This document shows positions 7,805 through 25,673 of a stretch of 25,673 bases of DNA, piece by piece; positions within the stretch are counted from its first letter, which is position 1; every line of letters begins with the position of its first letter. The notes under the pieces are model-generated. The model was not told the origin of the DNA and searched no databases. It saw nothing but the letters and a program-made list of their open reading frames with translations. The stretch comes from a virus. The position numbers and the translations under genes were made by a program. The stretch spans positions 1 to 25,673 of the IMG/VR virus record IMGVR_UViG_3300046011_005496. One strand, given 5' to 3'.

Positions 7805-7813
7805 TGTCTCGTG

Positions 7814-8698
7814 ATGGGGAACCGAACCGAACTGGAACTTCACCAGTTGGCTGTCGCAACCGACACCAGACTCGCCGAACTGTACCAAAAGGACTTCCGC
7901 TTGCGGACCGACATCCAGTGGGAGGCAGAAAGAATAGCCCGCATGATTCATACCCACGGGCACGAGCGTGAGGAACTCGCCCGCAAAATCCGCTTCATCG
8001 AAACGACCGTCGACACGCTCGAGCCGCAACTTAGCGAGTGGGGTCAACTCCAGTTTGCCGACGCCGTCAAACGCCTCAAGGAGAAGTTCGAGCAACGCAA
8101 TGCGGTCGCCGAAGAGCGCCGCCCGCTCGACGCTCTCTACCAACAGCACCAGTGGAGCCGCTTCTTCCTCGTCACCAACACCAACGGGCACATCCACAAG
8201 ACGATGTATTGCCACACCTGCTTCGAGGACACCCGCTTTCAATGGCTCCCAAACCTCTCAGGATTGACGGAGGCGAACGCAGTCCAGCAGGAGGGTGAAA
8301 TCCTCTGCACCGCCTGTTTCCCCACCGCTCCCGTCGACTGGACACGAGGCGTCGCCCGCAGGGACCTCGAAGCCAGAGCCGCCAGAGCCGCCGCAAAAGC
8401 CGAGCGTGAAGCCAAGAAACTCGCCAAAGCCCTCCTCCCTGACGGCGGCGTCTTCCGCTTCAAGAATGAGCGAATCACCACCCTTCACACCGCCAAAGCG
8501 GAACTGAAGAGAGAACTCGAGTGGCAGAAGTATTATCCCAATGCGACGCATGCCTTCGCCCCAGTCGAAGAAATCCAGCGGCTCATCGAAGCAATCGCCG
8601 CCAAAGAAGGCAAGACCGCTCAGGAGGTCGAAGTGGAAACCAAGCAGAAAGTCAACAAACAGTTGAAAAAGGACGGATACGCAGGGTGGGAAATCTGA
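7814..8698 (+). CDS. coiled-coil zinc-ribbon protein of actinobacteriophage type
   Basis: A 294-residue protein. The first 115 residues are a long helical coiled coil. Then comes G-H-I-H-K-T-M-Y with C133-x2-C136, a segment R-F-Q-W-L-P-N-L-S-G-L-T-E-A-N-A-V, and C165-x2-C168 in L-C-T-A-C-F-P-T-A-P-V-D-W. The two cysteine pairs with the intervening L-S-G should hold one zinc. The C-terminal 130 residues are again helical and rich in A, K and E. This arrangement is common in phages and mobile elements of actinobacteria as I recall, but its function is not established. Start is ATG 7814 or GTG 7811 at the expected transcription start of a strong promoter. Confidence 0.75.
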   Translation: MGNRTELELHQLAVATDTRLAELYQKDFRLRTDIQWEAERIARMIHTHGHEREELARKIRFIETTVDTLEPQLSEWGQLQFADAVKRLKEKFEQRNAVAEERRPLDALYQQHQWSRFFLVTNTNGHIHKTMYCHTCFEDTRFQWLPNLSGLTEANAVQQEGEILCTACFPTAPVDWTRGVARRDLEARAARAAAKAEREAKKLAKALLPDGGVFRFKNERITTLHTAKAELKRELEWQKYYPNATHAFAPVEEIQRLIEAIAAKEGKTAQEVEVETKQKVNKQLKKDGYAGWEI

Positions 8699-12199: not shown

Positions 12200-13687
12200 A
12201 TGGCGAGCGCTGACGATTTTATTGAACTTGGCTCATCTGGTTTGCAACGGACCTCAGGGTTCGTTATCGACGAGTTCGTCTCAGACCTCAGAGGAATCAG
12301 GGGTGCCCGTGTCTACCGAGAAATGTCAGATAACGACCCAGTCATTGGGGCGATGCTTTATGCGATTGAAAAACTGATTCTCGCCATCAAGTGGGAAGTA
12401 GAACCTTGGCACGAAAAAGACAAAGAAGTCAAACGGAAAGATAAAGAAAACGCCATCTTCGTCGAGGAGTGCATGCACGACATGAGCGAATCATGGTCGG
12501 CGATGATTTCACAGATTCTTTCTTTCCTTCCTTACGGATATGCCTTTTGTGAACTTGTCTACAAGAAGCGTGTCTCGCCAGATGCCAAGAGCGGCATGAA
12601 ACGGTCTAAGTTCACTGATGGAAAAATCGGTTGGCGCAAGATTGCGCTCCGAGGACAAGAAACACTGTGGGACTGGGTGTTCGATGACAACGGCGGTGTG
12701 AGGGCTTTCCAACAGTCAGACCCGTCCGTGCCAAAAGGTTTGGTGACCATTCCCATCGAGAAGGGTCTCCTATTCCGCACTGCTAACCCTCGCAACAACC
12801 CTGAGGGCAGGTCGATTCTCCGCAACGCTTATCGACCGTGGAAGTTCAAGAAGACCATTGAGGAGATTGAGGCTGTAGGTATTGAGCGTGACTTGGCTGG
12901 TTTGCCTGTTGCCTATGTTCCACCGTCGATGCTTTCGTCCGCCGCTACCACAGCAGAAGTATCTGCCCGTAATGCGATGCAAGATTTGATTCGCCGCATC
13001 AAGCGAAACGAGAACGAAGGTGTCTTGTTCCCATTGGCTTACGATGAGCAGGGTCGTGAACTTTACAAACTGACGCTCCTCAACTCTGGTGGCACCCGCC
13101 AGTTCAATACGGATGCAGTGGTGACCCGCTATGACCAGCGAATCGCCATGACGGTCCTCGCAGATTTCATCCTTCTCGGGCACGACAAGGTCGGCTCGTT
13201 TGCTTTGGGTGCATCGAAGATTGACTTGTTCACTTCTGCCATCCAGCAGATTGCGGACACGATTGCCGATACTTTCAACGACCACGCCATTCCTCGCCTG
13301 TTTAGGTTGAACGGTATGAATACCTCAAGACTGCCGAAAATCAAGGCTGGCGAAATCACACATGTTGACTTGGGTGTCCTCGGAGACTTCGTCTCGAAGA
13401 TGACTTCGGCTGGTGCGATGCAACCAGACCTCGAGATGGACAACTATCTGAGGTCGCTCGCTAATCTTCCGCCTCGTTCGGAGCAGGAGGGCGGCATGAT
13501 GGCTCCGCAGGGCATGGACCCGTTGACTGGTCAACCAGTTCCGCCAACCCCGCCCGCAGGCGCCCCCGCAGGCGCACCCCCGCCCGCAGGCGCACCTACG
13601 GGCGCCCCCGCAGGCGAGGCTCCAGCACCAGAGCCGACCAACCTGTTCGAGATGGTGTCCCAGCAGGAACAGCAAAAAGGCGGCTGA
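12200..13687 (+). CDS. phage portal protein (DUF935/Mu gp29-like)
   Basis: A 495-residue portal, the dodecameric ring at the head vertex through which DNA enters and leaves. The N-terminal part has Y-R-E-M-S-D-N-D-P-V-I-G-A-M-L-Y-A-I-E-K-L-I, typical of this portal type. The middle has a stem-clip part with G-W-R-K-I-A-L-R-G-Q-E-T-L-W-D-W and R-T-A-N-P-R-N-N-P-E-G-R-S-I-L-R-N-A-Y-R, followed by the wing helix F-K-K-T-I-E-E-I-E-A-V-G-I-E-R. The last 70 residues include a low-complexity tail of P-A-G-A-P-type repeats (about residues 452-475). It is directly followed by the Mu F-like gene, as is usual. Confidence 0.88.
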   Translation: MASADDFIELGSSGLQRTSGFVIDEFVSDLRGIRGARVYREMSDNDPVIGAMLYAIEKLILAIKWEVEPWHEKDKEVKRKDKENAIFVEECMHDMSESWSAMISQILSFLPYGYAFCELVYKKRVSPDAKSGMKRSKFTDGKIGWRKIALRGQETLWDWVFDDNGGVRAFQQSDPSVPKGLVTIPIEKGLLFRTANPRNNPEGRSILRNAYRPWKFKKTIEEIEAVGIERDLAGLPVAYVPPSMLSSAATTAEVSARNAMQDLIRRIKRNENEGVLFPLAYDEQGRELYKLTLLNSGGTRQFNTDAVVTRYDQRIAMTVLADFILLGHDKVGSFALGASKIDLFTSAIQQIADTIADTFNDHAIPRLFRLNGMNTSRLPKIKAGEITHVDLGVLGDFVSKMTSAGAMQPDLEMDNYLRSLANLPPRSEQEGGMMAPQGMDPLTGQPVPPTPPAGAPAGAPPPAGAPTGAPAGEAPAPEPTNLFEMVSQQEQQKGG

Positions 13688-13688
13688 C

Positions 13689-14633
13689 ATGCCGCACGAC
13701 CACACGCTCGAGTCGGTCACTAAGGCTGAAATCCTTGACCCTGTTCTTCGTGAGGAGATAGCGGCACTCGCCAACCTGTACGACACTGCTTTCCGTGGTC
13801 TTGCCGCCGCCGCTGAGCGGGCGAGGAACGCCATGATTGCGGCAGGTCGCACAGGTACGGCTGACCTCCGCAGTTTTCAAGAGGTGTTTGCCGCTGAGGT
13901 GCAACGCTCTCTTGGTACTTCGCTTGTGGATGTTTCGGACGGTACCCGTGAACAGTTGTTGAGGGATGTCGAACGCTCCATTAGGGAACTGCCTGAAGGT
14001 ATTTCTGTTTCGATGCGATTCGACCGATTGGACCCTCGAGCCATTCAGTGGGCATCAACTCGGGCGGGGACACTGATTCAGCAGATTCAGACCGAAACTT
14101 TGACGGCTGTACGGCGCATCATTGCAGACGCTCTCGCAGGCGGTGGTGGGGTTATCGGCGCATCCAGTCAACTTGTGAGGGTTATCGGGCTACATGAACG
14201 CTGGCAGGCGGCGGTCGACAACTTCTACGAAAACCAAATCGAGGACCTGACCGAAATGTTCCCCGAGTTGGGGGCGGAAGAGATTGCCACTCGAGCGCAA
14301 GGCGCCGCCGAGGAGTATCGTGCTCGTCTTGTGCGAACCCGAGCGGACACGATTGCCCGCACAGAAATCATCGCCGCCCAGAACACAGGGCAGTTGGTGT
14401 CGTGGCTTCAAGCCGCCGACCAAGGTTTTTTGGACTTGAACAACGCCTACAAGGAGTGGGTGGTCGGTCCCGATGGGTGGGCTGGTATAGCGGTATGCGA
14501 AATCTGTTTGGAGTTGGGTGGCGAGACTGTGCCTGTGTTGGGGGTGTTCTCGAATGGTGAGGCGTATCCGCCAGCGCACCCAAACTGTCGATGCAACATG
14601 AATCTCATCGTCGATTTTGGTGAGGAGGAATAG
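13689..14633 (+). CDS. Mu F-like head morphogenesis protein (minor capsid)
   Basis: A 314-residue protein of the Mu gpF/SPP1 gp7 type, a minor head component that binds the portal and acts in head assembly and DNA ejection. The long helical N-terminus is followed by R-A-D-T-I-A-R-T-E-I-I-A-A-Q-N-T-G (about residues 218-234). The end has C-E-I-C-L-E-L-G-G and the hallmark P-P-A-H-P-N-C-R-C. In other phages the Mu F domain is sometimes fused to toxin domains. Here the domain ends normally, and the toxin-like domains follow in separate genes starting 2 bp further. It carries no copy of the repeated tag. Confidence 0.9.
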   Translation: MPHDHTLESVTKAEILDPVLREEIAALANLYDTAFRGLAAAAERARNAMIAAGRTGTADLRSFQEVFAAEVQRSLGTSLVDVSDGTREQLLRDVERSIRELPEGISVSMRFDRLDPRAIQWASTRAGTLIQQIQTETLTAVRRIIADALAGGGGVIGASSQLVRVIGLHERWQAAVDNFYENQIEDLTEMFPELGAEEIATRAQGAAEEYRARLVRTRADTIARTEIIAAQNTGQLVSWLQAADQGFLDLNNAYKEWVVGPDGWAGIAVCEICLELGGETVPVLGVFSNGEAYPPAHPNCRCNMNLIVDFGEEE

Positions 14634-14635
14634 TC

Positions 14636-17600
14636 GTGGCTGACATCAAAAACCTCGTCAGAGTTGATGCGATGGTTCGCCGTGCCTTACGCAAAGCCTC
14701 TTTTGGCGGGGACCGTAGTGCGGCTGGCAGGTATGCCGCCGAACAGAGATGGAAGAATCATCAGAAAAAAGAACAAGCAGGCGGCAATGTGACCACCCCG
14801 CCAATCACAACGCCCACTGTTCGCACCACTGAAGAGAAACTCGCCAACGGTCCACAGAACTTTATCTTTGGGCTTGACCAGTACGGCATGCCCAAGATGG
14901 GCACACTCGACGAGTTGAAAAAACGATATGGTCGTGGCGCCGCCGCCCGCTCCAGTTATTTTTTGGACAAATACGGGGTGAAGGTACGGATTGTTCCAGT
15001 GAAGGCTGGAAGCCTTGAAGAAGTAACGCAGTTGGGTGCGCTTCAAGCCATCGAAGAGGTGATGATGAACACCGAAAACGGGGCGACGCTGGTAAAAAAC
15101 ATTTCGTTGGGTGATGATGGTTCGTACACCTACAAAAACATGGACGCCAATGGCTACTACCAAAGCGGTTACATTACGCTGAAACAAGAGACGATTCAGG
15201 GGCGAATACTGAAACTGCTCCCTGCGCTCAGAGACGGCAAAGTGGATGTTGGGCAAAATCTGTCGTTCAGATTTACTCAAGAGGGTGTCACGATTCCAGT
15301 GGATGGTGGAACTGCTGTTGTTCGGACGATGTGCCAACGGGCGGGCTATGCGGTGATGGTTCACGAGTTCGGTCATGCGATTGACATGGCGGGCGGGGGT
15401 CGCAGAATGGACGCTTCATCGACGGTTCACTATGGGCGTGGAATCTTGGGGCTGGGGAAAATCCCTACATCTGTTTCCCGTTACGGTCAGGGCAATGAGT
15501 TTGAGTATGTGGCTGAGGCGTGGACGGCTTGGTTCCTGTTTGGTCAGACATCGGTAAAAACTGGTTTTTCTGCGGATTCTTATGGCGAGTTGGCGGCACC
15601 GATTCTTCGCCCGATTTTTGAGGATAGGAAAGATGTCGTCAAGATGTTGGAGCGGTCCATCGACATTGCCGATTTGCCACCAGAGCATCCAGTCATCATG
15701 TTTATTTTGGCGCCGTTTATTTCGAGCGCCGCCCTTATCAAAGCGTCGTTCGGTGGCGACCGCTCCGCCGCTGGTCGCTATGCCGCCGAGCAGAGATGGA
15801 AAGGGCATGTCAAGGGGGGCAAATCTGCATCGGTGGTTGTGAACGAGTCTCAGTTGTCGTGGCTGACAAAACCAACTGATACGAGTTCAGAAGACTTCAC
15901 CAAAAGGATTGTTGAGCGACTTGTCGAAAAGTTTAGTTTCTTTGAGTTGAGCGCCGCAGTGTTGGTGCAACTATCCATGTCTTATCCCAAGGAAGGGCAA
16001 CAGGCGTTGCGGTTGCTGAACGCCTATAAAGAAGAACTGAGTGGTGCCAAAAACTCAAAAGAAGTGGGCATTATTGTCAACGAAATAATCTCTAGACAGG
16101 GCGCTCAACCGAGGATGTATGACAGTTGGGAAACCGAAGAACTCGAGTTGATACGACTTTCTGGGTCAATAGGTGACATGGAATCCGACTCTTTGACGCA
16201 GGCGGACAGGTTGGTCCACACCTTGAAACAAGGGTGGACCGTTGGCAGTCAAAAAGGTAGGGCGCAAGTGGCGGCGTTGACTGGACAAAGCCTTGGTGCC
16301 TCATCAAATCGAAACGCCGAGCAGGACTACGAGAGAAAAGATGCCGACGAACTTACAAAGATAATGAATACAGATGAGGGGTATGCGGCGAAACAAGTTT
16401 TGACTGCTTTGGTGAAAGAAGTGTACGACGACACGCAACGGCTCATAAAAGAAAAACTGCCAGAAGGTACGACGCATGTAAGGCTGTTCAGGGGCACCGC
16501 TTTGACGGAAGAACAACTGAGGGATGCCAAGGACGGGCTTCTGGATGTGGCGGTCACGAGTAGTTGGACGAGTAGCCCGAAGATAGCGGGAGATTTTCGT
16601 GGGACTTACAAACCGCTTTGGGATGCGACGGGGGAGCGCAGAAAACTGGAAGAAGTGAAAATAACCGCCTTGGTTCCCGTAGGTTCGATTTTTGCTGTGG
16701 GTTTGCAGGGTTTTGGCGGAAAAGGGGAACGGGAGGTTTTGGTTCTTGGTCCATCGGTCGAAGTGCAGAGGGTTGTTCTGTCAACAGAGGCGGTCGGGAA
16801 GAACCTTGCCGCTCTCATCAAAGCCTCCTTCGGTGGTGACCGCTCAGCGGCAGGTCGTTATGCGGCTGAGCAAAGGTGGAAAGGGCATGTGAAAGACAAG
16901 CCTGCTGGCAGTCCGCCGTCTGGTGGGGCAGGGGACTTCATGCGTTTGATAAACGGCACACCGCAGACCTACACAGTCAAGGGCGTGATTCAGGTTCACG
17001 GGTTCGGCATAGATGGCGGCATAAGCCGTGGGCATTACGACGACTTGGTCAAAGCCGACCCAAATGAGGAGGGCAACTCGACTGGCGTGTGGCAGACCAC
17101 CGCTGGGGAGTTCCGCCGCATGGCTACCAGCGGTGAGTTGGACTTGTCACCGAAATGGGTAGACCATGTGGTTCGCAGTCTGCGGGAACACTCAGATGAC
17201 ACGAGGGTTGCAGTGGAACTGGGTGTGGACGCCATCATTGTGCGAAACCAGCCCATTGTTCCTATTCGTCCTGACCAGCCGCACACCGCCAAAGACATTG
17301 TCAGTATTGGGCAAGCCATCAACAGTAGCGCTCAAATAGACGAGGATTGGGGTCTCAATAACGACACCGATAAAAAGTTGACCGTCAACACGAGTCCACG
17401 CAATAAGGGACCAGTCAAGTCTGGAACACTTAGCCGCTGGGAGAAAGGGTGGGAAACGGACTACAACAACCTGCCTTACTGCAAGGAAATCGCAAGCCAC
17501 GCCGCCTATCTGATGGGACAAGTAGATGCTCCCGTCGAACGGTGGGGGCGGGACCGTGGTTCTCGTGCGCCATCAGAGGCGATGCTGGCGCAAGACGCCA

Positions 17601-18184
17601 AGGATTTGTTGGCGAGCATCCACCAAGGCGTTGAAGGTCAACCTGTTCTGTGGCGTGGCTTGGAGCCGTCTCGGTCGGCTACGAAAGGCTTGGTGGACAA
17701 GGCTCAGGTTGGCGATACGCTGACTCTCGGTTTGGCGTCGACCAGCAGGGACGCTATTGCGGCGGCGAAATACACGCAGGCTTACAGCGGTGAAAGCAAA
17801 CCAATCCTCATGCGAATCGAAGAAGGCTCAAAGGGTGTTTCCCTTGGCGACAGGGCGTTGTATCGGCACGACCAAGAAGTCATAACGAGCGGCAAGTTCG
17901 AGGTCGTCGGTGTCCAAACCGTGACTGTCCCACAGTGGCAGATGCCCTCGCTCGGAGTTGAGACGATTCAACCATCAGAAAGAATCGTCATCGCACGGGA
18001 AGCGTTGCCGAAGGTGAAGGCTTTGTTGCCCCCAGAACAGTATGCGGCTATTGAACGGTCCGTGGAGCGAGAGGCACGGAACAAGGTGGAGTTTGAGAAA
18101 AAAACCGTGACTGTGAAGATTGTGTCGGTTCGCCAAACGGAGACCTTCAACCCTGAGACTGAGGAGTTTGAGGCGAATGGCTGA
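14636..18184 (+). CDS. three-module cargo polyprotein: metallopeptidase, ADP-ribosyltransferase, ADP-ribosyltransferase
   Basis: An 1182-residue protein built of three units, each starting with the 23-residue tag (residues 20-42, 369-391, 729-751). Unit 1 holds H243-E-F-G-H247 and E294 in Y-V-A-E-A-W, the pattern of a zinc metallopeptidase. Unit 2 holds R619 in L-F-R-G-T, T-S-S-W-T-S-S (641-647) and E698-R-E700, the R-S-E set of ADP-ribosyltransferases. Unit 3 has a second such set: R1007 in L-W-R-G-L, S1035-T-S1037 and D1079-Q-E1081, where the first acid is D instead of E. Start is GTG 14636 after GAGGAGGAA. It follows the Mu F-like gene directly. I infer head-packaged effector cargo. Whether it is cut at the tags is unknown. 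Confidence 0.8.
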   Translation: MADIKNLVRVDAMVRRALRKASFGGDRSAAGRYAAEQRWKNHQKKEQAGGNVTTPPITTPTVRTTEEKLANGPQNFIFGLDQYGMPKMGTLDELKKRYGRGAAARSSYFLDKYGVKVRIVPVKAGSLEEVTQLGALQAIEEVMMNTENGATLVKNISLGDDGSYTYKNMDANGYYQSGYITLKQETIQGRILKLLPALRDGKVDVGQNLSFRFTQEGVTIPVDGGTAVVRTMCQRAGYAVMVHEFGHAIDMAGGGRRMDASSTVHYGRGILGLGKIPTSVSRYGQGNEFEYVAEAWTAWFLFGQTSVKTGFSADSYGELAAPILRPIFEDRKDVVKMLERSIDIADLPPEHPVIMFILAPFISSAALIKASFGGDRSAAGRYAAEQRWKGHVKGGKSASVVVNESQLSWLTKPTDTSSEDFTKRIVERLVEKFSFFELSAAVLVQLSMSYPKEGQQALRLLNAYKEELSGAKNSKEVGIIVNEIISRQGAQPRMYDSWETEELELIRLSGSIGDMESDSLTQADRLVHTLKQGWTVGSQKGRAQVAALTGQSLGASSNRNAEQDYERKDADELTKIMNTDEGYAAKQVLTALVKEVYDDTQRLIKEKLPEGTTHVRLFRGTALTEEQLRDAKDGLLDVAVTSSWTSSPKIAGDFRGTYKPLWDATGERRKLEEVKITALVPVGSIFAVGLQGFGGKGEREVLVLGPSVEVQRVVLSTEAVGKNLAALIKASFGGDRSAAGRYAAEQRWKGHVKDKPAGSPPSGGAGDFMRLINGTPQTYTVKGVIQVHGFGIDGGISRGHYDDLVKADPNEEGNSTGVWQTTAGEFRRMATSGELDLSPKWVDHVVRSLREHSDDTRVAVELGVDAIIVRNQPIVPIRPDQPHTAKDIVSIGQAINSSAQIDEDWGLNNDTDKKLTVNTSPRNKGPVKSGTLSRWEKGWETDYNNLPYCKEIASHAAYLMGQVDAPVERWGRDRGSRAPSEAMLAQDAKDLLASIHQGVEGQPVLWRGLEPSRSATKGLVDKAQVGDTLTLGLASTSRDAIAAAKYTQAYSGESKPILMRIEEGSKGVSLGDRALYRHDQEVITSGKFEVVGVQTVTVPQWQMPSLGVETIQPSERIVIAREALPKVKALLPPEQYAAIERSVEREARNKVEFEKKTVTVKIVSVRQTETFNPETEEFEANG
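14693..14761 (+). repeat. tag copy 1
   Basis: Encodes residues 20-42 of the 14636 protein, before the metallopeptidase unit. Core FGGDRSAAGRYAAEQRW followed by K-N-H. Ser of D-R-S uses AGT, and Arg of G-R-Y uses AGG. Confidence 0.95.
15740..15808 (+). repeat. tag copy 2
   Basis: Encodes residues 369-391 of the 14636 protein, before the first ADP-ribosyltransferase unit, preceded by A-A-L-I. Core unchanged, followed by K-G-H-V-K. Ser of D-R-S uses TCC, and Arg of G-R-Y uses CGC. Confidence 0.95.
16820..16888 (+). repeat. tag copy 3
   Basis: Encodes residues 729-751 of the 14636 protein, before the second ADP-ribosyltransferase unit, preceded by A-A-L-I. Core unchanged. Ser of D-R-S uses TCA, and Arg of G-R-Y uses CGT. 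Confidence 0.95.
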
Positions 18185-19088
18185 CTTGGGTTTCATCGAC
18201 GACCTCTGGTTCGACAGGCTTGGGGAACTTGATGAGGAGATGCGATTGGCTGACCTCATCAAAGCCTCTTTTGGCGGGGACCGTAGTGCCGCAGGCAGGT
18301 ATGCGGCTGAACAGCGATGGAAGGGTCATGTCAAGAAACAGCCAGTCGCCCCGTCCAATCCCTACAACCTTCAGGTCTCGGAGAATCTTGGCGCCCAGTT
18401 GTCTCTCATAGGGGCGGCGATGCGAACGGTCGAGGACGCTGGTGTGGAGACGAAGGCGTATGGTCGCTCTGATTTGACTCCTGACGACATAGACAAGTTG
18501 GACGATGAGATTCATGCGATGAGGAAAAGAATCGACGGGGCAGACAAGTTGAACGATTTTCGATTGAGCAAGGGGAAGATTTCGGAGGAGGAGTATCTTC
18601 GTATGAATGAAGTGTTGAGAAGAGCGCACGAGGCAAGAAGATTGGGGAGAATGGCGTTGACGAAAATGCTTCGTGACCCTTCCGATGAGGATTTTGAGGA
18701 TGAGTTGTTGGTGAGCCGTGACGCAGATGGCAAACTTGCTGGGCTAACGATGATTTCAACACTCAAAAAAGATGTCGATTTGAGGATGCTCTACCACAAC
18801 GGTCCGCCAGTTGTTCTGAATGTCAAGGGCAGGTCCGTCTATGTGGAGTTTTTAGTGAGTTTTCAATCGGTTCCCCAAATGGGCAAGGCATTGTTTGGGG
18901 AGTTGCTGAAACATTCCGCTGGTAAGGGTGTTCAGAGCATCATGCTGGAAACCACGGATGAGAGCAGGGACTATTGGCAGAGAATCGGTTTCAAGCCGAT
19001 GCAGTCATACGGTGTGGTTAGCGTGGACCGTCACTCAATCGAGTTTCCTGTTGATTTGATGGTCAATAAAATGGAAGAGGGCAACTGA
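18177..19088 (+). CDS. tagged cargo protein with a GNAT acetyltransferase domain
   Basis: A 303-residue protein. The short acidic leader (residues 1-28, ending L-A-D-L-I) is followed by the tag at 29-51, a helical linker, and a GNAT-like domain from about 185. The domain shows V-S-R-D-A-D-G-K-L-A-G-L-T, then V-Y-V-E-F-L-V-S-F-Q-S-V-P-Q-M-G-K-A-L-F-G-E-L-L, then the late GNAT motif D-Y-W-Q-R-I-G-F-K-P-M. The A-box here is Q-M-G-K-A-L rather than the usual R-x-x-G-x-G, so acyl-CoA binding should be checked. The ATG at 18177 overlaps the previous stop. Start at 18120 in another annotation would be inside the previous gene. Likely cargo like its neighbours. Confidence 0.72.
   Translation: MADLGFIDDLWFDRLGELDEEMRLADLIKASFGGDRSAAGRYAAEQRWKGHVKKQPVAPSNPYNLQVSENLGAQLSLIGAAMRTVEDAGVETKAYGRSDLTPDDIDKLDDEIHAMRKRIDGADKLNDFRLSKGKISEEEYLRMNEVLRRAHEARRLGRMALTKMLRDPSDEDFEDELLVSRDADGKLAGLTMISTLKKDVDLRMLYHNGPPVVLNVKGRSVYVEFLVSFQSVPQMGKALFGELLKHSAGKGVQSIMLETTDESRDYWQRIGFKPMQSYGVVSVDRHSIEFPVDLMVNKMEEGN
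18261..18329 (+). repeat. tag copy 4
   Basis: Encodes residues 29-51 of the 18177 protein. Core unchanged, followed by K-G-H-V-K-K. Closest in codon use to copy 1 (shared AGT and AGG), yet it still differs from it at several synonymous sites. Confidence 0.95.
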
Positions 19089-19089
19089 C

Positions 19090-20697
19090 ATGGCTGGCAT
19101 CCAAGACCTTGATTACTATGACGATGACGACCTTATCGAACTGTTGCGGCAGGTTGACCTCGAGGAGATACTAAAAGCGTCTTTCGGTGGCGACAGGTCT
19201 GCCGCTGGTCGCTATGCCGCTGAGCAACGCTGGAAGGGTCATGTGAAACGGGAGGACAAGGGCAAGGAGGGTAAGACCTTGCGGGATGCTACGGCTGAGG
19301 TGTCGGCGCTTTTGAGGCGGATAAACGGCATGCTGGAGTATCCGATAAGTGATAAAGGTTCGGCGGGAAACCCGATGACTCCAGAGGAATACGAGTCTTC
19401 GTCAGCCACCAGTTTTCGGTTCGTTTATGTAAAGACTGGGAAGAACGGAAAGGTCATGCTTGTTCCGTCGAAGCAGTCAATGGAGGCGGAAAGACGAGTC
19501 AACGAGTTGGGGCAACAGGCGTTCAAGGAAATCGGCGCAAGGCTGGTAGCAAACGGGACGGTAACTCAGAAGGAACTCGACGATGCGATTTCCTTTCAGC
19601 GGGCGCCAGAGGATGCTGATGAGTCGCCTGACGCCGACCTGTATCGGCGGGCGATGGCTGGCGACAAGTCACTTGGCAATGAGGTTGCCGAGAAGGGGCG
19701 GAGGGTTGCGGAGGCTAAGGAGGCGGCGGCAAAGGCGAAGGGGGCGTTGATGAAGGCGACCCGTGAATACAACAAGTACCTAGAAACCGAAGGCGGTCGT
19801 TCGTATGACGAGACCGCTCGACGCCTATGGGAAGCAAGAAAACAGGCGAGGGCGGCGAACATTGACGCAAGGCTCGAGTTGGCTACCGCCGACGAAGTCC
19901 TGATGGAAGCAATCAGGGAGATTCGACCAGTTGACTACAAGGCGCTGGACGACGCTCGGAAGGCTGGGAAGGAAAACAGTTTGAGGGTGCAAGGGCTTAT
20001 TGGCGCCGAAGTAAAACGGGTGTTGGCTGGGGATAATGCGATGAGCGACAACCACCCCGCCAACAAAGTTGATGTTCCAACAACAACCTTACTCAGAATC
20101 GCAGATGACAAACCTCAATCCAAAACTGGAAACCAAGTGGTCGCAGAGATTATGGGGGAGGTGTCACGAAGGTTCCCGAAGAAGTTGCTCGACTTGGTCG
20201 CTGGGGTGAGGCACAAGTTCACCTCTCGGGGCGGTGGATACTACAACGATGGAATGAACTTGATTCAATCCGACATGGACGACGCCGACACTTTGACCCA
20301 TGAGACTGTTCACGCCATCTCGTACAGGGACAGTGCTACGAGGGTATTGGAGCAGGCGGCACTCAGTCGCCGAGTATTTGGTAAGCCAGACCAGCCAGAT
20401 GATTCTTTCGCAAAGAAACTAGAAAAAGGTTTGCAGAGAGTCGTTGGGGGCACGAAGGCTGTGGGATGGAGATTGGGCGGTAAATACATTGAGGACAAGT
20501 TTGTTGCTGGGTATCAGGGACGGATGTACGGTCTGGAGCGAAGCAACTATCAGTCGCAACCAACAGAGATTTTGACGATTGCAACCGAGAATGTGTTTGG
20601 CGGTGCAAGTTATTTCAGGTCCACTGGAAGATTGGACCAAGATTTGATGATGACGGCGTTGGGCTGGCTATTGGTCGGTGGGTCGAACCGTGATTGA
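19090..20697 (+). CDS. tagged cargo protein with a second HExxH metallopeptidase domain
   Basis: A 535-residue protein. An acidic leader (Y-D-D-D-D-L-I-E-L-L, residues 10-19) precedes the tag at 29-51. A long helical middle (residues about 180-290, rich in A, K, E, R) follows. The C-terminal part carries H404-E-T-V-H408 in T-L-T-H-E-T-V-H-A-I-S and later E493 in Q-P-T-E-I-L-T-I-A-T-E, a plausible third zinc ligand. It differs from the metallopeptidase of the 14636 protein apart from the zinc motif. ATG 19090 lies one base after the previous stop. It could cut host proteins after injection or head proteins during maturation. The first is favoured by the tag context. Confidence 0.72.
   Translation: MAGIQDLDYYDDDDLIELLRQVDLEEILKASFGGDRSAAGRYAAEQRWKGHVKREDKGKEGKTLRDATAEVSALLRRINGMLEYPISDKGSAGNPMTPEEYESSSATSFRFVYVKTGKNGKVMLVPSKQSMEAERRVNELGQQAFKEIGARLVANGTVTQKELDDAISFQRAPEDADESPDADLYRRAMAGDKSLGNEVAEKGRRVAEAKEAAAKAKGALMKATREYNKYLETEGGRSYDETARRLWEARKQARAANIDARLELATADEVLMEAIREIRPVDYKALDDARKAGKENSLRVQGLIGAEVKRVLAGDNAMSDNHPANKVDVPTTTLLRIADDKPQSKTGNQVVAEIMGEVSRRFPKKLLDLVAGVRHKFTSRGGGYYNDGMNLIQSDMDDADTLTHETVHAISYRDSATRVLEQAALSRRVFGKPDQPDDSFAKKLEKGLQRVVGGTKAVGWRLGGKYIEDKFVAGYQGRMYGLERSNYQSQPTEILTIATENVFGGASYFRSTGRLDQDLMMTALGWLLVGGSNRD
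19174..19242 (+). repeat. tag copy 5
   Basis: Encodes residues 29-51 of the 19090 protein, preceded by L-E-E-I-L. Core unchanged. Arg of D-R-S uses AGG, Ser uses TCT, and Arg of Q-R-W uses CGC. Confidence 0.95.
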
Positions 20698-20995
20698 ACA
20701 CACTTGGGTTGTCGAACATGAGGGGCAGGATAGTGAGGTCGTCTGGGATGATGTTTCCTTGACGCTTTTCGGTCCTGCGCCGATTACGGTGCGAGCGCAC
20801 GAGTTGGTCAAGGCTCGGCAGGTCGTGTATGTGACGCCTGTTGGTCCAAGGATGGTTGCTTCGCTGGATGAGCAGTTAGCGGCGTGGGCGACGATTTCGC
20901 AAGCCATCGAAGACTCTGGCTATGAACTGGTGGGCGGCAGTAAGGCGCCGATGGAACCAGAGATGGAGTTAGAAGATAACCCCTCTAGCGAGTGA
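20690..20995 (+). CDS. small acidic protein between cargo genes, unknown
   Basis: A 101-residue acidic protein (M-I-E-H-T-W-V-V-E-H-E-G-Q-D-S-E-V-V-W-D-D-V) with mostly beta strands and an acidic disordered tail (M-E-P-E-M-E-L-E-D-N-P-S-S-E). GTG 20690 overlaps the previous stop. GTG 20678 is also in frame. Its stop overlaps the start of the protease-cargo gene (GTGA). It lacks the tag. Being coupled to the prohead protease gene it could be a chaperone or inhibitor of it, but this is only position. No family recognised. Confidence 0.55.
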   Translation: MIEHTWVVEHEGQDSEVVWDDVSLTLFGPAPITVRAHELVKARQVVYVTPVGPRMVASLDEQLAAWATISQAIEDSGYELVGGSKAPMEPEMELEDNPSSE

Positions 20996-23900
20996 CGCAA
21001 GGCTGGTCAACTACTACTGTCGATGCGATGGCTGAGACCAGCATGCAAAAAGATGTCGAGTTGGCTCAAGCATGGGCTAAGGGCGAGGTGGCGTGGGAAG
21101 ACCTGCCGCCGCATGTTCAAGACGCCATTGACGAGGTCATGGCAGACGAGTTACCAGATGAGGCTTCTGTCAGTGATGCCATGACTAAAAGCGAAGAGGC
21201 GTTGACGCTTCTTCATAAGTCTGATGGTGAGCATCGTTTCACGCTTGGTCCTTGGTACATCCCAAACAGATATGACGCTCATGGGGAGTGGACTGATGCG
21301 GACGAGTTGCAGAAGGCGCTTTGGGAGTATGTGCGAACTGGTGACCGTGGTATCAGGTTGCAACATGACAAGGACATCGTTGCTGGAGAGTGGCTGGAGG
21401 CGATGTCGTTCCCTGTTCCTGTGACCATTGGGATGAACAAAGCGGAGGGGAGCCAGCAGGTTACCTATCCGTCTGGGACCGTGTTCCTCGGTGTGCAGTG
21501 GAAGCCGTGGGCGTGGGAGTTGGTCAAGGAAGGCAAGATTCGAGGGTTTTCGATTGGTGGTGCGGCGGCTCGTATCGAGATGATGATGCCCGACGATGCG
21601 ATTGCCAAAGCATCGTTCGGCGGTGACAGGTCAGCGGCAGGGCGTTATGCCGCAGAGCAGAGATGGAAAGGACACGCCAAGGGCGGCAAGCCGACAGGCG
21701 GCGAAGCATCCCAAAGGGTGACCGACATGCGGCAACGAAGCCAGCCGCTTATGAACATGATTGAAAGGTTCTCCGACAAAAAACTTCTCGATAGCGCCGT
21801 GGAATCACTGAAGAAACGGGGCATCGCCAACCCCACTCTTCCTGATGACGATGAAGTGAACAAGAAACTTGCTGATGGTCTGAAAAAGAACTTTGCATCG
21901 TTGATGAAGCAAGCCGAGGATGCTATTGCCGCATCGGAAAAGGCGATGAAGAACGGCGATACGGCAACCCTAGACGAGCAAAACAATGCACTGCAAAAAA
22001 TCAAGAACAAGTTTGGGGCATTGAACCGAGCGACCCTCAAGGAGGAAGAGGCGAAGGTGGGGATTCCCAAGAACATCTCCGAGAACAATCTTCAGACGAT
22101 GATGTACGCCAGCGTCGCCCTCATTTACGACAACGCCAAAAAGTTCATCGACCAAGAAATCAAACGGAATAAGGGGATACCGATTTGGAAGGCGTCTTTC
22201 GGTGGCGACAGGTCCGAGGCTGGGCGGTATGCCGCCAATCAACGCTGGCAGGGTCAGGGTTTGCGTGGCGTCGAAACCAGCGGGCAGAAGACGACTGCGG
22301 TTATGCACGATGTTGTGACCCGTGTGCTTGGGCGTGTTGCTCAGGCTCGGGCAAGAAAAGAAATGAGGCAAGAAGAGGGCAGGTCTTCGTTGCTGTCCCG
22401 CATCAAGTATGTGTTCTCAAATGATTACACCAATCCTGAGCCTTTGGCGAGGAAGTGGGTGAAGGATGCGGCTCGTTTGGCGATGCGGGACAAAGAACGG
22501 GCAACCGATATGCAGGTTTCTTCCGTAGTCGCTTTGCCTGAAGGCAAGCAGGTGATTTTGGACCGAGGGAAGTTGACGACTGTTGGTAAGCAACAGCCAA
22601 CCTCATCTCAGGTGCATGTCGATACCATCATGGGCGGCAAGAAACGCAAACGAAATAAACGCAAGCCAATCATGGTCGATAAAGCGAAGAGTCCAGCATG
22701 GCAACGAGAAGAAGGAAAAAACCCCAAGGGCGGATTGAACGCTAAGGGTCGTGCTTCGGCAAAGGCACAGGGCATGAATCTGAAACCGCCAGTCAAGAGC
22801 GGCGACAATCCTCGCCGTGCCTCATTCCTTGCTCGTATGGGTAATGCGAATGGTCCAGAGTATGACGAAAAAGGTAAGCCGACACGGTTGCTTCTTAGTT
22901 TGAGGGCGTGGGGCGCTTCATCGAAAGCAGATGCCCGCAAGAAGGCGGCGGCTATCTCTGCTCGCAATAAGGCGAAAGAGACGAAGAAAGCCAAGGGCGG
23001 TCTGTCGGAGTGGTTTGACGAGAAGTGGGTTGATTTGTCAAGACCGAAAGAGGGCGGCGGTTTCGAGGAATGTGGGCGTCCTGATGCTTCGGAGGGCAAG
23101 TATCCAAAATGCGTTCCTGCTTCTGTTGCGGCGAAGATGTCGGAGAATGAGCGCAGGTCTGCTATTCGCCGCAAGCGTCAAGCAGAGGCTAAGGGGCGTC
23201 GTGAAAACGGCAAACCGATAAATGTGCCGACCTTCAAGTCGAAGAATGTGCCGACTGACCCCAAGTTGTATGCACGGGTAAAATCTGAGGCAAAAAAGAA
23301 GTTCGATGTGTACCCATCTGCCTATGCCAATGCTTGGCTTGTGCAGGAATATAAGAGGAGAGGTGGTGGATACAAGGTACAAAAATCTTTTGATGCGATT
23401 ATAGATAACCGTTTGGCAACAGCAAGAATCAAAAAACAAATGTTTGAAAAAGCGGTTTCATTTGGGGGTGACCGTTCCGAAGCAGGCAGATATGCCGCCA
23501 ATCAACGATGGAAAGGCAGAGGGCATGTTGCTCAAAAGCACATTCGTAGTTGGCATAAACAGTTTGGGCGTGGAAAGATGCAATACCCCAAAACACCTGA
23601 AGGTAAAGCACTTGCTCAAACAATGCCAAGTTTGAACACTCATTGTGATTTTGATAGTTTGGCGAAAGAGTTACAACGAACAGGGATGACATCAAATAGC
23701 CCTGACTATGCGATGGTGGTCTACGGGTTTTTGACGGATGAGCGTCGTGCTACTTGGGACAAGTTGATTGGTGACGCCGTGAGCGGTGTACCGCAAGGAA
23801 CGAACCCTGAGGGTTCTAGGGTGTTTGTGAAGGCTGGTGGAGGAGGTTCAGGTAAATCATCTACTCCAGCGATGGAGGGTGTGAACATTCCGACTGCTGG

Positions 23901-24609
23901 TGAGAAGATTGACGGCAAGGCAACTCCTCGTAATGCTGTCATATCTAACGCTGATGATGTAAAAGAACTGTTACCCGAATGGAGTCAGTCCGAAAAGTCA
24001 TCAGATAACAAGATGACGATAACCCCGAAAGGTAAGCAACTTCCTGACGGTCCTTTGATGCAAAGACGGGCTTCGCTCGTGCATGAAGAGTCTTCACTTA
24101 TCGGGAACTTGATTGTTACCGCCGCAATAGAAACGAAGAAAGATTTGATTGTTGACGGGACTTTGGATAACGGTGTCGAAAAGTCTTTGGCTAAGTTGCA
24201 GTCGTATCGTGACGGTGGTGCGGCGGAGGTTCATTTGATTACTTATTCGTGTGATACCGATGAGGCGGAGGCTCGGGCTTATGTTCGTTCCAAGGAAACT
24301 GGTAGGTCGGTACCTGTTGAAAGTTTGAGAAACGCTCACATCAAGGTGTCGTCTAACTTCCCTCAATACCTTGAGAAAGGCAACCTTGATTCGGTGACGG
24401 TGGTTGACACGAACTTGAACGATGACGGTTCCAAGCGTCCTGCTACAAAGATTTTTGAGTATAAGCCTTCAGGTGGGATAAAGATTTTGAATCAAGTGTT
24501 GTATCAGCGTTTCTTGGACAAGCGAAACGACTCAATGAAATCTGGTATCAACCCGTTCGAGTTGGATGAAGAAGTAAATCAGCAGATAGTGAACTCACAG
24601 AAGGGATGA
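20992..24609 (+). CDS. XkdF-like prohead protease fused to tagged cargo, ending in a zeta-toxin-like kinase
   Basis: A 1205-residue protein. Residues about 82-200 match the XkdF-like (S78-type) prohead protease: L-G-P-W-Y-I-P-N-R-Y-D-A-H-G-E, then L-Q-H-D-K-D (H125), then G-K-I-R-G-F-S-I-G-G (S187), the probable nucleophile. Tag 6 (206-228) leads a helical segment. Tag 7 (400-422) leads a very basic region with S-P-A-W-Q-R-E-E-G-K-N-P-K-G-G-L-N-A-K-G-R and W-V-D-L-S-R-P-K, resembling domains I recall as DUF6321 and DUF5872. Tag 8 (820-843) leads a zeta-toxin-like kinase: Walker A G-G-G-G-S-G-K-S-S (K955), H1031-E-E-S-S and V-D-G-T (D1055), T-G-R-S-V-P. Start GTG 20992 overlaps the previous stop. 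A protease joined to its likely cargo suggests self-cleavage. Confidence 0.8.
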   Translation: MTQGWSTTTVDAMAETSMQKDVELAQAWAKGEVAWEDLPPHVQDAIDEVMADELPDEASVSDAMTKSEEALTLLHKSDGEHRFTLGPWYIPNRYDAHGEWTDADELQKALWEYVRTGDRGIRLQHDKDIVAGEWLEAMSFPVPVTIGMNKAEGSQQVTYPSGTVFLGVQWKPWAWELVKEGKIRGFSIGGAAARIEMMMPDDAIAKASFGGDRSAAGRYAAEQRWKGHAKGGKPTGGEASQRVTDMRQRSQPLMNMIERFSDKKLLDSAVESLKKRGIANPTLPDDDEVNKKLADGLKKNFASLMKQAEDAIAASEKAMKNGDTATLDEQNNALQKIKNKFGALNRATLKEEEAKVGIPKNISENNLQTMMYASVALIYDNAKKFIDQEIKRNKGIPIWKASFGGDRSEAGRYAANQRWQGQGLRGVETSGQKTTAVMHDVVTRVLGRVAQARARKEMRQEEGRSSLLSRIKYVFSNDYTNPEPLARKWVKDAARLAMRDKERATDMQVSSVVALPEGKQVILDRGKLTTVGKQQPTSSQVHVDTIMGGKKRKRNKRKPIMVDKAKSPAWQREEGKNPKGGLNAKGRASAKAQGMNLKPPVKSGDNPRRASFLARMGNANGPEYDEKGKPTRLLLSLRAWGASSKADARKKAAAISARNKAKETKKAKGGLSEWFDEKWVDLSRPKEGGGFEECGRPDASEGKYPKCVPASVAAKMSENERRSAIRRKRQAEAKGRRENGKPINVPTFKSKNVPTDPKLYARVKSEAKKKFDVYPSAYANAWLVQEYKRRGGGYKVQKSFDAIIDNRLATARIKKQMFEKAVSFGGDRSEAGRYAANQRWKGRGHVAQKHIRSWHKQFGRGKMQYPKTPEGKALAQTMPSLNTHCDFDSLAKELQRTGMTSNSPDYAMVVYGFLTDERRATWDKLIGDAVSGVPQGTNPEGSRVFVKAGGGGSGKSSTPAMEGVNIPTAGEKIDGKATPRNAVISNADDVKELLPEWSQSEKSSDNKMTITPKGKQLPDGPLMQRRASLVHEESSLIGNLIVTAAIETKKDLIVDGTLDNGVEKSLAKLQSYRDGGAAEVHLITYSCDTDEAEARAYVRSKETGRSVPVESLRNAHIKVSSNFPQYLEKGNLDSVTVVDTNLNDDGSKRPATKIFEYKPSGGIKILNQVLYQRFLDKRNDSMKSGINPFELDEEVNQQIVNSQKG
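21607..21675 (+). repeat. tag copy 6
   Basis: Encodes residues 206-228 of the 20992 protein, at once after the prohead protease domain. Core unchanged, followed by K-G-H-A-K-G-G. Arg of D-R-S uses AGG, and Ser uses TCA. Confidence 0.95.
22189..22257 (+). repeat. tag copy 7 (variant type)
   Basis: Encodes residues 400-422 of the 20992 protein. The variant core is FGGDRSEAGRYAANQRW followed by Q-G-Q: Ala becomes Glu after D-R-S, and Glu becomes Asn before Q-R-W. Confidence 0.93.
23449..23520 (+). repeat. tag copy 8 (variant type)
   Basis: Encodes residues 820-843 of the 20992 protein, before the zeta-toxin-like kinase. It has the same E/N variant core as copy 7, and an inserted Val gives K-A-V-S-F-G-G. 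Confidence 0.93.
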
Positions 24610-24613
24610 TGCG

Positions 24614-24850
24614 ATGAGAGAACCGAATGATTATGAACTGTGTAAAACGATTGCTTGCATGATTGTGGAAGGTTTATCTGAGCATGACATCTCGAAGTTT
24701 GGGGTGTTGAACACAGATGAGGGTCGTCTGTGTTATGCGGCGGCGTTGGAAAATCCGAAGTATTGGTCACAAATCGGTTTGGAAGTTGAGGCAGGTTGGT
24801 GTTGTTCTGGTCTTCCGCAAGGGCTTCGTGAGTATTTGGGGTTGACATGA
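24614..24850 (+). CDS. small protein of unknown function
   Basis: A 78-residue protein, M-R-E-P-N-D-Y-E-L-C-K-T-I-A-C-M-I-V-E-G-L, mostly helical with several cysteines (C-K, A-C, L-C-Y, W-C-C). It lacks the tag. It begins 4 bp after the previous stop and its stop overlaps the next cargo gene (ATGA). The coupling suggests it acts with its neighbour. No family recognised. Confidence 0.58.
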   Translation: MREPNDYELCKTIACMIVEGLSEHDISKFGVLNTDEGRLCYAAALENPKYWSQIGLEVEAGWCCSGLPQGLREYLGLT

Positions 24851-25673
24851 CATGCGATTGTGGTTGCGGTAAATCGCCGTTGTCCAAGGGGGAGCAGACA
24901 GTTTTGAAGCACCTTAGAGATGGGGTGTTGTGGGATTTGCCTGACGCTTTGTGGGCACAGGTTGTGTCAGAGGTGGAGAAGGCTGGTTCTATTACGAAAG
25001 TTCAGGGTTCAGCGCAAGTCATTTTGTACGATGCGATTACCAAGCAGGCTGGAGGGTTTGGTGGGGACCGTTCGGCGGCTGGTCGCTATGCCGCCGAGCA
25101 GAGATGGAAAGGTCATGTCAAGGCGGTACCGCAAGCAGGTGAAGCAAGAAGAGCAAAGGAAATGCCATTGCCACAGGGCGAAAGCGAAAAGTTGGGTACG
25201 CCTGTCCGCTGGGACCCTAAATCACGAAGGCAAATCGTAAAGGTGTCAACGGTGGAAGAAGCGTATGAAGAGATTGCCAAAGGAAATATCGTCGAGATGG
25301 CAACCGCTCAAGAAGCCGTCACCATTGTCGAGAAGATGGCGGATTACCTAAAAGAGGTTGAGGAGAAGACTGGGGAAAAGCCGAAGAATCTGAACTTTTG
25401 TCAAATCTCGGTTCCTGGGACGAACTTGTTTTGTGGTTCGTCGGTGGCGACGGACAAGTATCCAGATGGTGTACCTCGTGTCGAGATGCCTCAGTTGTCT
25501 GGTATCCCTAAGGAAGGTAGCAAGGCAGACAAGTTGGCTCGCATCGACGATGAAGGAAATGTTGATGTCGGTAAGGCGTTCGTCGACAAGTTAGCGAAAG
25601 AGGGAGTCGAGACCAAGGAGGCTGAGGTTCCTGCCAGTTGGTTGAAGGCGTCGCAGAGCGAGTTGAAAGGCTC
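24847..25673 (+). CDS. tagged cargo protein, incomplete at the window end, ParB-like end
   Basis: The open frame runs from ATG 24847 to the last base (275 codons, no stop). The N-terminus has C-D-C-G-C-G-K, a possible metal site, then a helical leader. The tag is at residues 71-90, ahead of a K-G-H-V-K. After it come two helical stretches and then S-V-P-G-T-N-L-F-C-G-S. The last visible part, V-P-A-S-W-L-K-A-S-Q-S-E-L-K-G-S, resembles the L-K-A-T-Q-x-E-L region of ParB-like nuclease domains in phage polyvalent proteins as I recall it. The rest lies outside the window, so the effector type is not settled. Confidence 0.7.
   Translation, partial: MTCDCGCGKSPLSKGEQTVLKHLRDGVLWDLPDALWAQVVSEVEKAGSITKVQGSAQVILYDAITKQAGGFGGDRSAAGRYAAEQRWKGHVKAVPQAGEARRAKEMPLPQGESEKLGTPVRWDPKSRRQIVKVSTVEEAYEEIAKGNIVEMATAQEAVTIVEKMADYLKEVEEKTGEKPKNLNFCQISVPGTNLFCGSSVATDKYPDGVPRVEMPQLSGIPKEGSKADKLARIDDEGNVDVGKAFVDKLAKEGVETKEAEVPASWLKASQSELKG
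25057..25116 (+). repeat. tag copy 9
   Basis: Encodes residues 71-90 of the 24847 protein. The core FGGDRSAAGRYAAEQRW and K-G-H are intact, but the usual K-A-S before it is replaced by K-Q-A-G-G. Ser of D-R-S uses TCG. Confidence 0.93.

Follow-up and report, generated by a model that had tools for sequence, protein, structure and literature searches.

Tags and a recurring lysine motif suggest that a phage head polyprotein carrying a zeta-family kinase is processed into injected effectors

We analysed a 25,673-nucleotide stretch of viral DNA, positions 1 to 25,673 of the IMG/VR record IMGVR_UViG_3300046011_005496 (hereafter the window), in which one open reading frame (ORF) at 20992-24609 encodes an XkdF-family prohead protease at one end and a zeta-family kinase at the other. 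This ORF and its relatives contain recognisable domains with their catalytic residues, a recurring tag of about 20 residues, the motif [LIVMF]-x-K directly before the tags, and an interchange of tag types among homologous proteins. We propose that the product is a head-maturation polyprotein which is probably cut at [LIVMF]-x-K into separately packaged and injected effectors, the zeta-family kinase being one of them.

Results

Three copies of a tag divide the polyprotein into modules

The polyprotein ORF (20992..24609, GTG start, 1205 amino acids (aa); this and all other window features below lie on the + strand) reads XkdF protease, tag, helical module, tag, DUF6321/DUF5872 module, tag and zeta-family kinase. 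Its two end domains exceed the curated Pfam cut-offs for Peptidase_S78_2/XkdF (aa 73-196, 21208..21579, 2.7e-10) and Zeta_toxin (module at 23527..24603, Pfam match aa 948-1140, 23833-24411, 5.5e-15). The tag has the consensus ASFGGDRSxAGRYAAxQRWKG (class 1) and no Pfam match at E values up to 10. In the polyprotein its profile found tag 1 at aa 207-227 (21610..21672) directly after I-A-K, tag 2 at aa 401-421 (22192..22254) after I-W-K, and tag 3 at aa 821-842 (23452..23517) after F-E-K. Between tags 1 and 2 lies the helical module, a tag-bounded segment (aa 237-399, 21700..22188). The segment that follows holds DUF6321 (aa 575-640, 22714..22911, Pfam 4.4e-19), a phrog_23735-like stretch (aa 669-752, 22996..23247, PHROGs 1.7e-16) and DUF5872 (aa 754-798, 23251..23385, Pfam 2.3e-11). 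An earlier sequence-only reading of this ORF had recognised both end domains but had overlooked DUF6321, DUF5872 and the recurring tag.

The window contains nine tag copies, three in the polyprotein and six in neighbouring ORFs (five ORFs in all). All of them are 3' of the portal and MuF genes, and none occurs in the first 14 kb. The tag DNA pattern matched the window 11 times against 1.3 matches expected, and shuffled sequences gave at most 5.

As a separate observation, the DUF6321 domain (22714-22911) shares 80% identity over 76 aa with a protein of a pelagiphage and 73-74% with proteins of Methylophilales phages, which is unusually close for such distant phages. Standalone copies of DUF6321 without tag also exist in relatives.

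A lysine motif precedes the tags and marks head proteins

Relatives were collected with the tag DNA pattern, which gave about 40 IMG/VR contigs, and a looser pattern added contigs with dialects of the tag; near-duplicate contigs were left out of the statistics. Results showed that every tag class starts directly after [LIVMF]-x-K, and all nine window tags have the motif. For class 1 it was present in 97% of 213 distinct upstream 14-mers, compared with 33% of the upstreams after shuffling and 21% of 14-mers drawn at random from these ORFs. With the lysine swapped in these upstreams the match fell to 4% for x-R and 16% for x-E; the latter, the T4 form of the site, was under its 23% control, and the upstreams thus do not show an L/I-x-E signal. 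The position -2 from the lysine was hydrophobic at frequencies of 0.93, 1.00, 0.80, 1.00 and 1.00 in classes 1-5 (background 0.24), and hydrophobicity at positions -1 and -3 of class 1 was near or below background.

The same motif was found near the N-terminus of head proteins, in 22/22 distinct MuF and 39/39 scaffold sequences, and ahead of the XkdF domain in 35 of 36 distinct upstreams (19% of random 16-mers). In the window the predicted self-processing motif is L-H-K at aa 74-76 (21211..21219), with a cut predicted after K76. Since MuF, scaffold and capsid protein carry no tag, cleavage site and tag are separable. The motif resembles known prohead protease sites in its form, namely L/I-X-E in T4 (PMC9026906), A-X-E in SPN3US (PMC10052503) and the K103/S104 cut of HK97 (PMC10275583).

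In Arthrobacter phage Kovu, gp20 (L157:5841-6974) is annotated as an RNA ligase; inspection by eye shows a domain like a 2H phosphoesterase (HLTLAYLG, HITVAYL) standing ahead of XkdF in a fusion, with L-T-K at the junction.

Homologous passengers stand behind different tags

A search with the tag profile yielded 187 copies, spread over 137 ORFs and 40 contigs, the window included, with a sharp score gap below the real copies. They precede 183 passengers that fall into 37 unrelated clusters, among them ADPrib_exo_Tox (3.7e-24), GNAT, Zeta_toxin and HExxH proteins. Tags are placed N-terminally behind a leader or within polyproteins, up to five per ORF, as in the 1744-aa ORF at L101:5862-11093; the longest possible leader ahead of the first tag was at most 35 aa in 31/100 ORFs. 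In the 61-kb contig G014, all 13 tags lie at 23.8-41.2 kb, in the head module around terminase, portal, MuF and XkdF.

Relatives that lack the FGGDRS tag bear other recurring tags in the same place, in four classes: KYNPNHDxxGRFxSGG (class 2), KHGxHDQxTHGxGG (class 3), KHGDPSRPNYxxxHP (class 4) and KGDxxGHxFxGNQW (class 5). Homologous zeta kinases stand behind classes 1, 2, 3 and 4, one GNAT family behind classes 1, 3 and 5, and one ADP-ribosyltransferase-like family behind classes 1 and 4. Homologues of p9, the tagged protein encoded after the polyprotein in the window, stand behind classes 1, 2 and 5. In MW202897, class 2 is also present, both in the portal and following the protease domain. 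A tblastn search with the class 3 tag gave no match in isolated phages.

Three further loci were recorded beside these classes. At L227:5248-8685 an XkdF ORF has class 3-like and class 4 tags flanking the zeta kinase, followed by one more module. In an archaeal (Nitrososphaera) provirus (L268:4429-5841) a class 2 tag lies near the portal C-terminus, with a Rel/Spo-like gene adjoining. An annotated internal head protein of Xanthomonas phage Rb1 (L267:6796-10461) contains a class 5-like GHPFRGNQ, a weak similarity at E=8.

Tags of one genome resemble each other. In the anchored alignment, tag similarity was 0.74 for unrelated passengers in the same genome versus 0.67 for homologous passengers in other genomes, and the difference within minus between genomes was 0.124 (permutation standard deviation 0.006). 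Such likeness is expected if all copies of one genome meet one partner, and gene conversion could contribute to it; because genome pairs are not independent, it is supporting rather than decisive. A sign test on the unanchored comparison was even (93 vs 103).

A loose tag pattern also gave 17 matches in bacterial and archaeal genomes, which were judged to be chance; those found again were short or spurious frames with one copy each.

Both ends of the polyprotein have conserved catalytic residues

The sequence-only reading had assigned an XkdF-like protease with H125 and S187 and a zeta-like kinase, and both assignments held. For the protease, the PF14550 profile (prohead protease XkdF/S78_2) matched, the ORF is set in a head gene module, and H125 and S187 were invariant across 16 XkdF relatives (alignment A2, columns 65 and 127). 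A profile search gave no solved structural relative of XkdF. Structure prediction of the two ends, suggested earlier as a check, was confident for the C-terminus and poor for the XkdF end (predicted local distance difference test (pLDDT) 48), which leaves the Pfam profile together with the conserved His and Ser as the basis for assigning XkdF.

In the kinase, the Walker A lysine K955, H1031-E-E-S and D1055-G were invariant in 15 zeta relatives (alignment A1, columns 110, 186-189 and 210-211), as was D988, and the Arg columns 250 and 254 were at least 90% conserved. The predicted model is a zeta-family P-loop kinase (pLDDT 88.8, predicted template modelling score 0.86), and Foldseek matched it to AvrRxo1 (2.2e-8), zeta 1gvn (7.8e-8) and PezT 2p5t (2.2e-7). 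A phmmer search of the PDB with the single module gave no match, and a profile of the module family found zeta 1gvn at 8.4e-4. The zeta toxin family (PF06414) is thus represented by profile, P-loop fold, Walker A Lys, catalytic Asp and conserved Arg. Because the best fold match is AvrRxo1, which we take to be a NAD kinase, the UDP-sugar target presumed in the sequence-only reading is not established.

Neighbouring genes carry the remaining tags

Upstream of the tagged ORFs lie a Mu-type portal protein (12200..13687, Pfam 1.5e-31) and a MuF-like head morphogenesis protein (13689..14633, Pfam 1.9e-8), whose N-terminal V-T-K predicts a cut after aa 12 (base 13724). A neighbouring polyprotein (14636..18184) has three tags (14696..14758, 15743..15805 and 16823..16885, directly after L-R-K, L-I-K and L-I-K) before a HEFGH metallopeptidase-like module and two ADP-ribosyltransferase-like modules. 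It is followed by a GNAT-like protein (18177..19088, ATG start inside the longer ORF 18120-19088) with a tag at 18264..18326 after L-I-K; by eye it is like passenger cluster 6, a related representative of which matches Acetyltransf_10 at 1.1e-3. The next tagged protein (19090..20697; tag 19177..19239 after I-L-K) has an HExxH motif, HETVH. Some of these enzyme-like assignments in neighbouring ORFs were made by motif only. Downstream of the polyprotein, p9 (24847..25671; tag 25045..25113 after I-T-K) is cut off by the window end, and a full-length relative has a ParB-like DGHHRW motif.

The near-identical contig G007 runs past the window end, with a tagged p10 and then the start of the scaffold. 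Within the window, the protein at 7811-8698 has no tag and its homologues in G004, G011, G017 and G019 are tagged (E down to 2e-43), that is, the same protein occurs with and without tag. The small ORF just upstream of the XkdF gene (20678-20995) is conserved in G001, G012 and G016. Arthrobacter and Microbacterium phages are the closest isolated relatives of the genome backbone, which makes an actinobacterium the probable host.

Discussion

From these patterns we propose that during head maturation the XkdF prohead protease, whose predicted cuts fall after [LIVMF]-x-K, would trim itself, the scaffold and MuF, and would sever the chain ahead of every tag. The window polyprotein would then yield a helical protein, a DUF6321/DUF5872 protein and the zeta-family kinase, each with a tag at its new N-terminus. 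Because the tag is present on passengers and absent from MuF, scaffold and capsid protein, we take it as an element that may keep the passenger with the head or let it leave with the DNA. The kinase and its ADP-ribosyltransferase-, peptidase- and acetyltransferase-like neighbours would ride in the virion and take effect once a new cell is infected. If the kinase rides along and does its work in the next host, no antitoxin is required. A wider rule, in which XkdF phages generally cut after [LIVMF]-x-K and mark injected cargo with lineage-specific, interchangeable N-terminal tags of at least five classes, could equally well hold or fail.

Cleavage, packaging, injection and the binding target of the tag are all steps that we infer. 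Several points weigh against this processing model. The window's tag was not found in bacterial genomes with the strict pattern or in the isolated relatives checked, and a search of isolated phages gave only matches at E=9. [LIVMF]-x-K is short, and its counts are inflated by relatedness among the sequences. Tag classes 2-5 come from patterns written by hand for a limited number of contigs. The model of the XkdF end, predicted together with the tag, is too poor for use. In addition, part of the cutting could be the work of metallopeptidase passengers.

The sequence-only reading had explained the fusion as the control of the toxin: the protease would hold zeta inactive, head maturation would free it, and the fusion would replace an antitoxin. 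We consider this unlikely, although the arrangement itself is real. The search that had been suggested for XkdF proteins with the same C-terminus showed that XkdF-TAG-...-TAG-zeta recurs in about 15 contigs. Across 80 XkdF loci, zeta lies inside the XkdF ORF in 24/32 tagged loci (several of the remainder are truncated), compared with 4/48 loci without tag, where XkdF is usually the end of the ORF. The conserved catalytic residues of the kinase are also in keeping with that explanation, as is the adjacent ORF 20678-20995, which has no Pfam or PHROG match and is not recognisable as an antitoxin, no dedicated antitoxin model having been run. However, 37 or more passenger families, zeta among them, are arranged alike behind tags and [LIVMF]-x-K sites, and most of these families lack a fusion to the protease. 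Zeta is a separate gene behind a different tag in L185, L193, L195 and L197. Modules join and split at tags, and p9 takes the place of zeta in G024. Nor is there any sign that the uncut polyprotein is inactive. The comparative evidence suggests that head-protease processing, which is likely, would separate zeta from the chain, but this processing is general to many passengers, and as a control device for zeta the fusion finds no support.

The polyproteins might instead be cut by their own HExxH metallopeptidase modules, as Iyer et al. 2017 proposed for polyvalent proteins (PMC5512222). HExxH is conserved in 17/17 members of passenger cluster 2 and in 7/10 of cluster 5. The same [LIVMF]-x-K, however, stands at the N-termini of MuF and scaffold and before XkdF, the usual substrates of prohead proteases, also in relatives with other tags, which makes these modules quite unlikely as the main cutters. 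It is very unlikely that the polyprotein is ejected whole, with its tags left intact as tethers or linkers to DNA or to some part of the head. The tag is basic and strongly conserved after the lysine, and large uncut virion proteins exist, such as the N4 RNA polymerase discussed in PMC5512222, but a sharp [LIVMF]-x-K shared by five unrelated tag types and by head proteins that have no tag looks like a protease site rather than the need of a linker. Finally, we rejected the idea that the repeats serve only for module shuffling by recombination of the DNA, with no function in the protein. Passengers do differ in order and combination between genomes and two window copies share some codons, but the nine window tags are unlike in only 11.6% of amino acids against 57% of synonymous codons (independent codons would give 67%). 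Selection thus acts on the protein, and this comparison largely refutes the idea.

Proteins injected along with phage DNA are hard to predict from sequence. If the processing model is true, tags together with [LIVMF]-x-K would show from the genomes of many uncultured phages which effectors they inject, and a predicted cleavage motif would become available for XkdF-family proteases. It would also extend capsid-targeted internal proteins of the T4 style to a different phage group in a modular polyprotein form.

We found no open-access paper on these tag sequences or on a fusion of zeta and prohead protease. The interchangeable tags and the lysine cleavage motif appear to be new, whereas earlier work had already predicted injected zeta kinases with head proteins. 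Iyer et al. 2017 (PMC5512222) describe polyvalent proteins that are predicted to be injected, including zeta-like kinases fused to MuF head proteins. Like the window proteins, these are multidomain proteins of the head module with ADP-ribosyltransferase, GNAT, zincin, ParB-like and zeta-like kinase domains, and assemblin-like peptidases are noted; the window likewise has several unrelated enzymatic domains per polypeptide in a head/late gene context. In the window, by contrast, XkdF precedes the cargo, and no repeated tag or processing motif turned up in the passages considered or in the literature searches. Cyanophage PSS2, an isolated phage, similarly has a zeta-like kinase in a 1499-aa head protein, gp30 (NC_013021), but this is annotated as head morphogenesis and not as an XkdF fusion, and the stretch examined has no FGGDRS tag.

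The window kinase shares the P-loop kinase fold and catalytic residues of zeta toxins, PezT and AvrRxo1; unlike them, it is part of a head polyprotein, with no antitoxin recognised in the adjacent ORF. As in HK97 (PMC10275583), the predicted cut lies between a Lys and a small residue. The HK97 cut frees the capsid protein from its scaffold domain, whereas here scaffold, MuF, protease and effectors bear the motif and the capsid protein is untagged. The nearest worked example is given by the T4 internal proteins and Alt, whose capsid targeting sequences are cut by gp21 (PMC9026906). Sequence similarity to the T4 elements was not seen; T4 has Glu where the window has Lys, the window tag follows the predicted cut and would be retained by the mature protein, and the window cargo is also chained in polyproteins. 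In both systems, nevertheless, short N-terminal elements stand on diverse proteins that are ejected in T4, where Alt is an ADP-ribosyltransferase, and gp21 cuts after a hydrophobic-x-charged residue motif, like the site predicted for XkdF.
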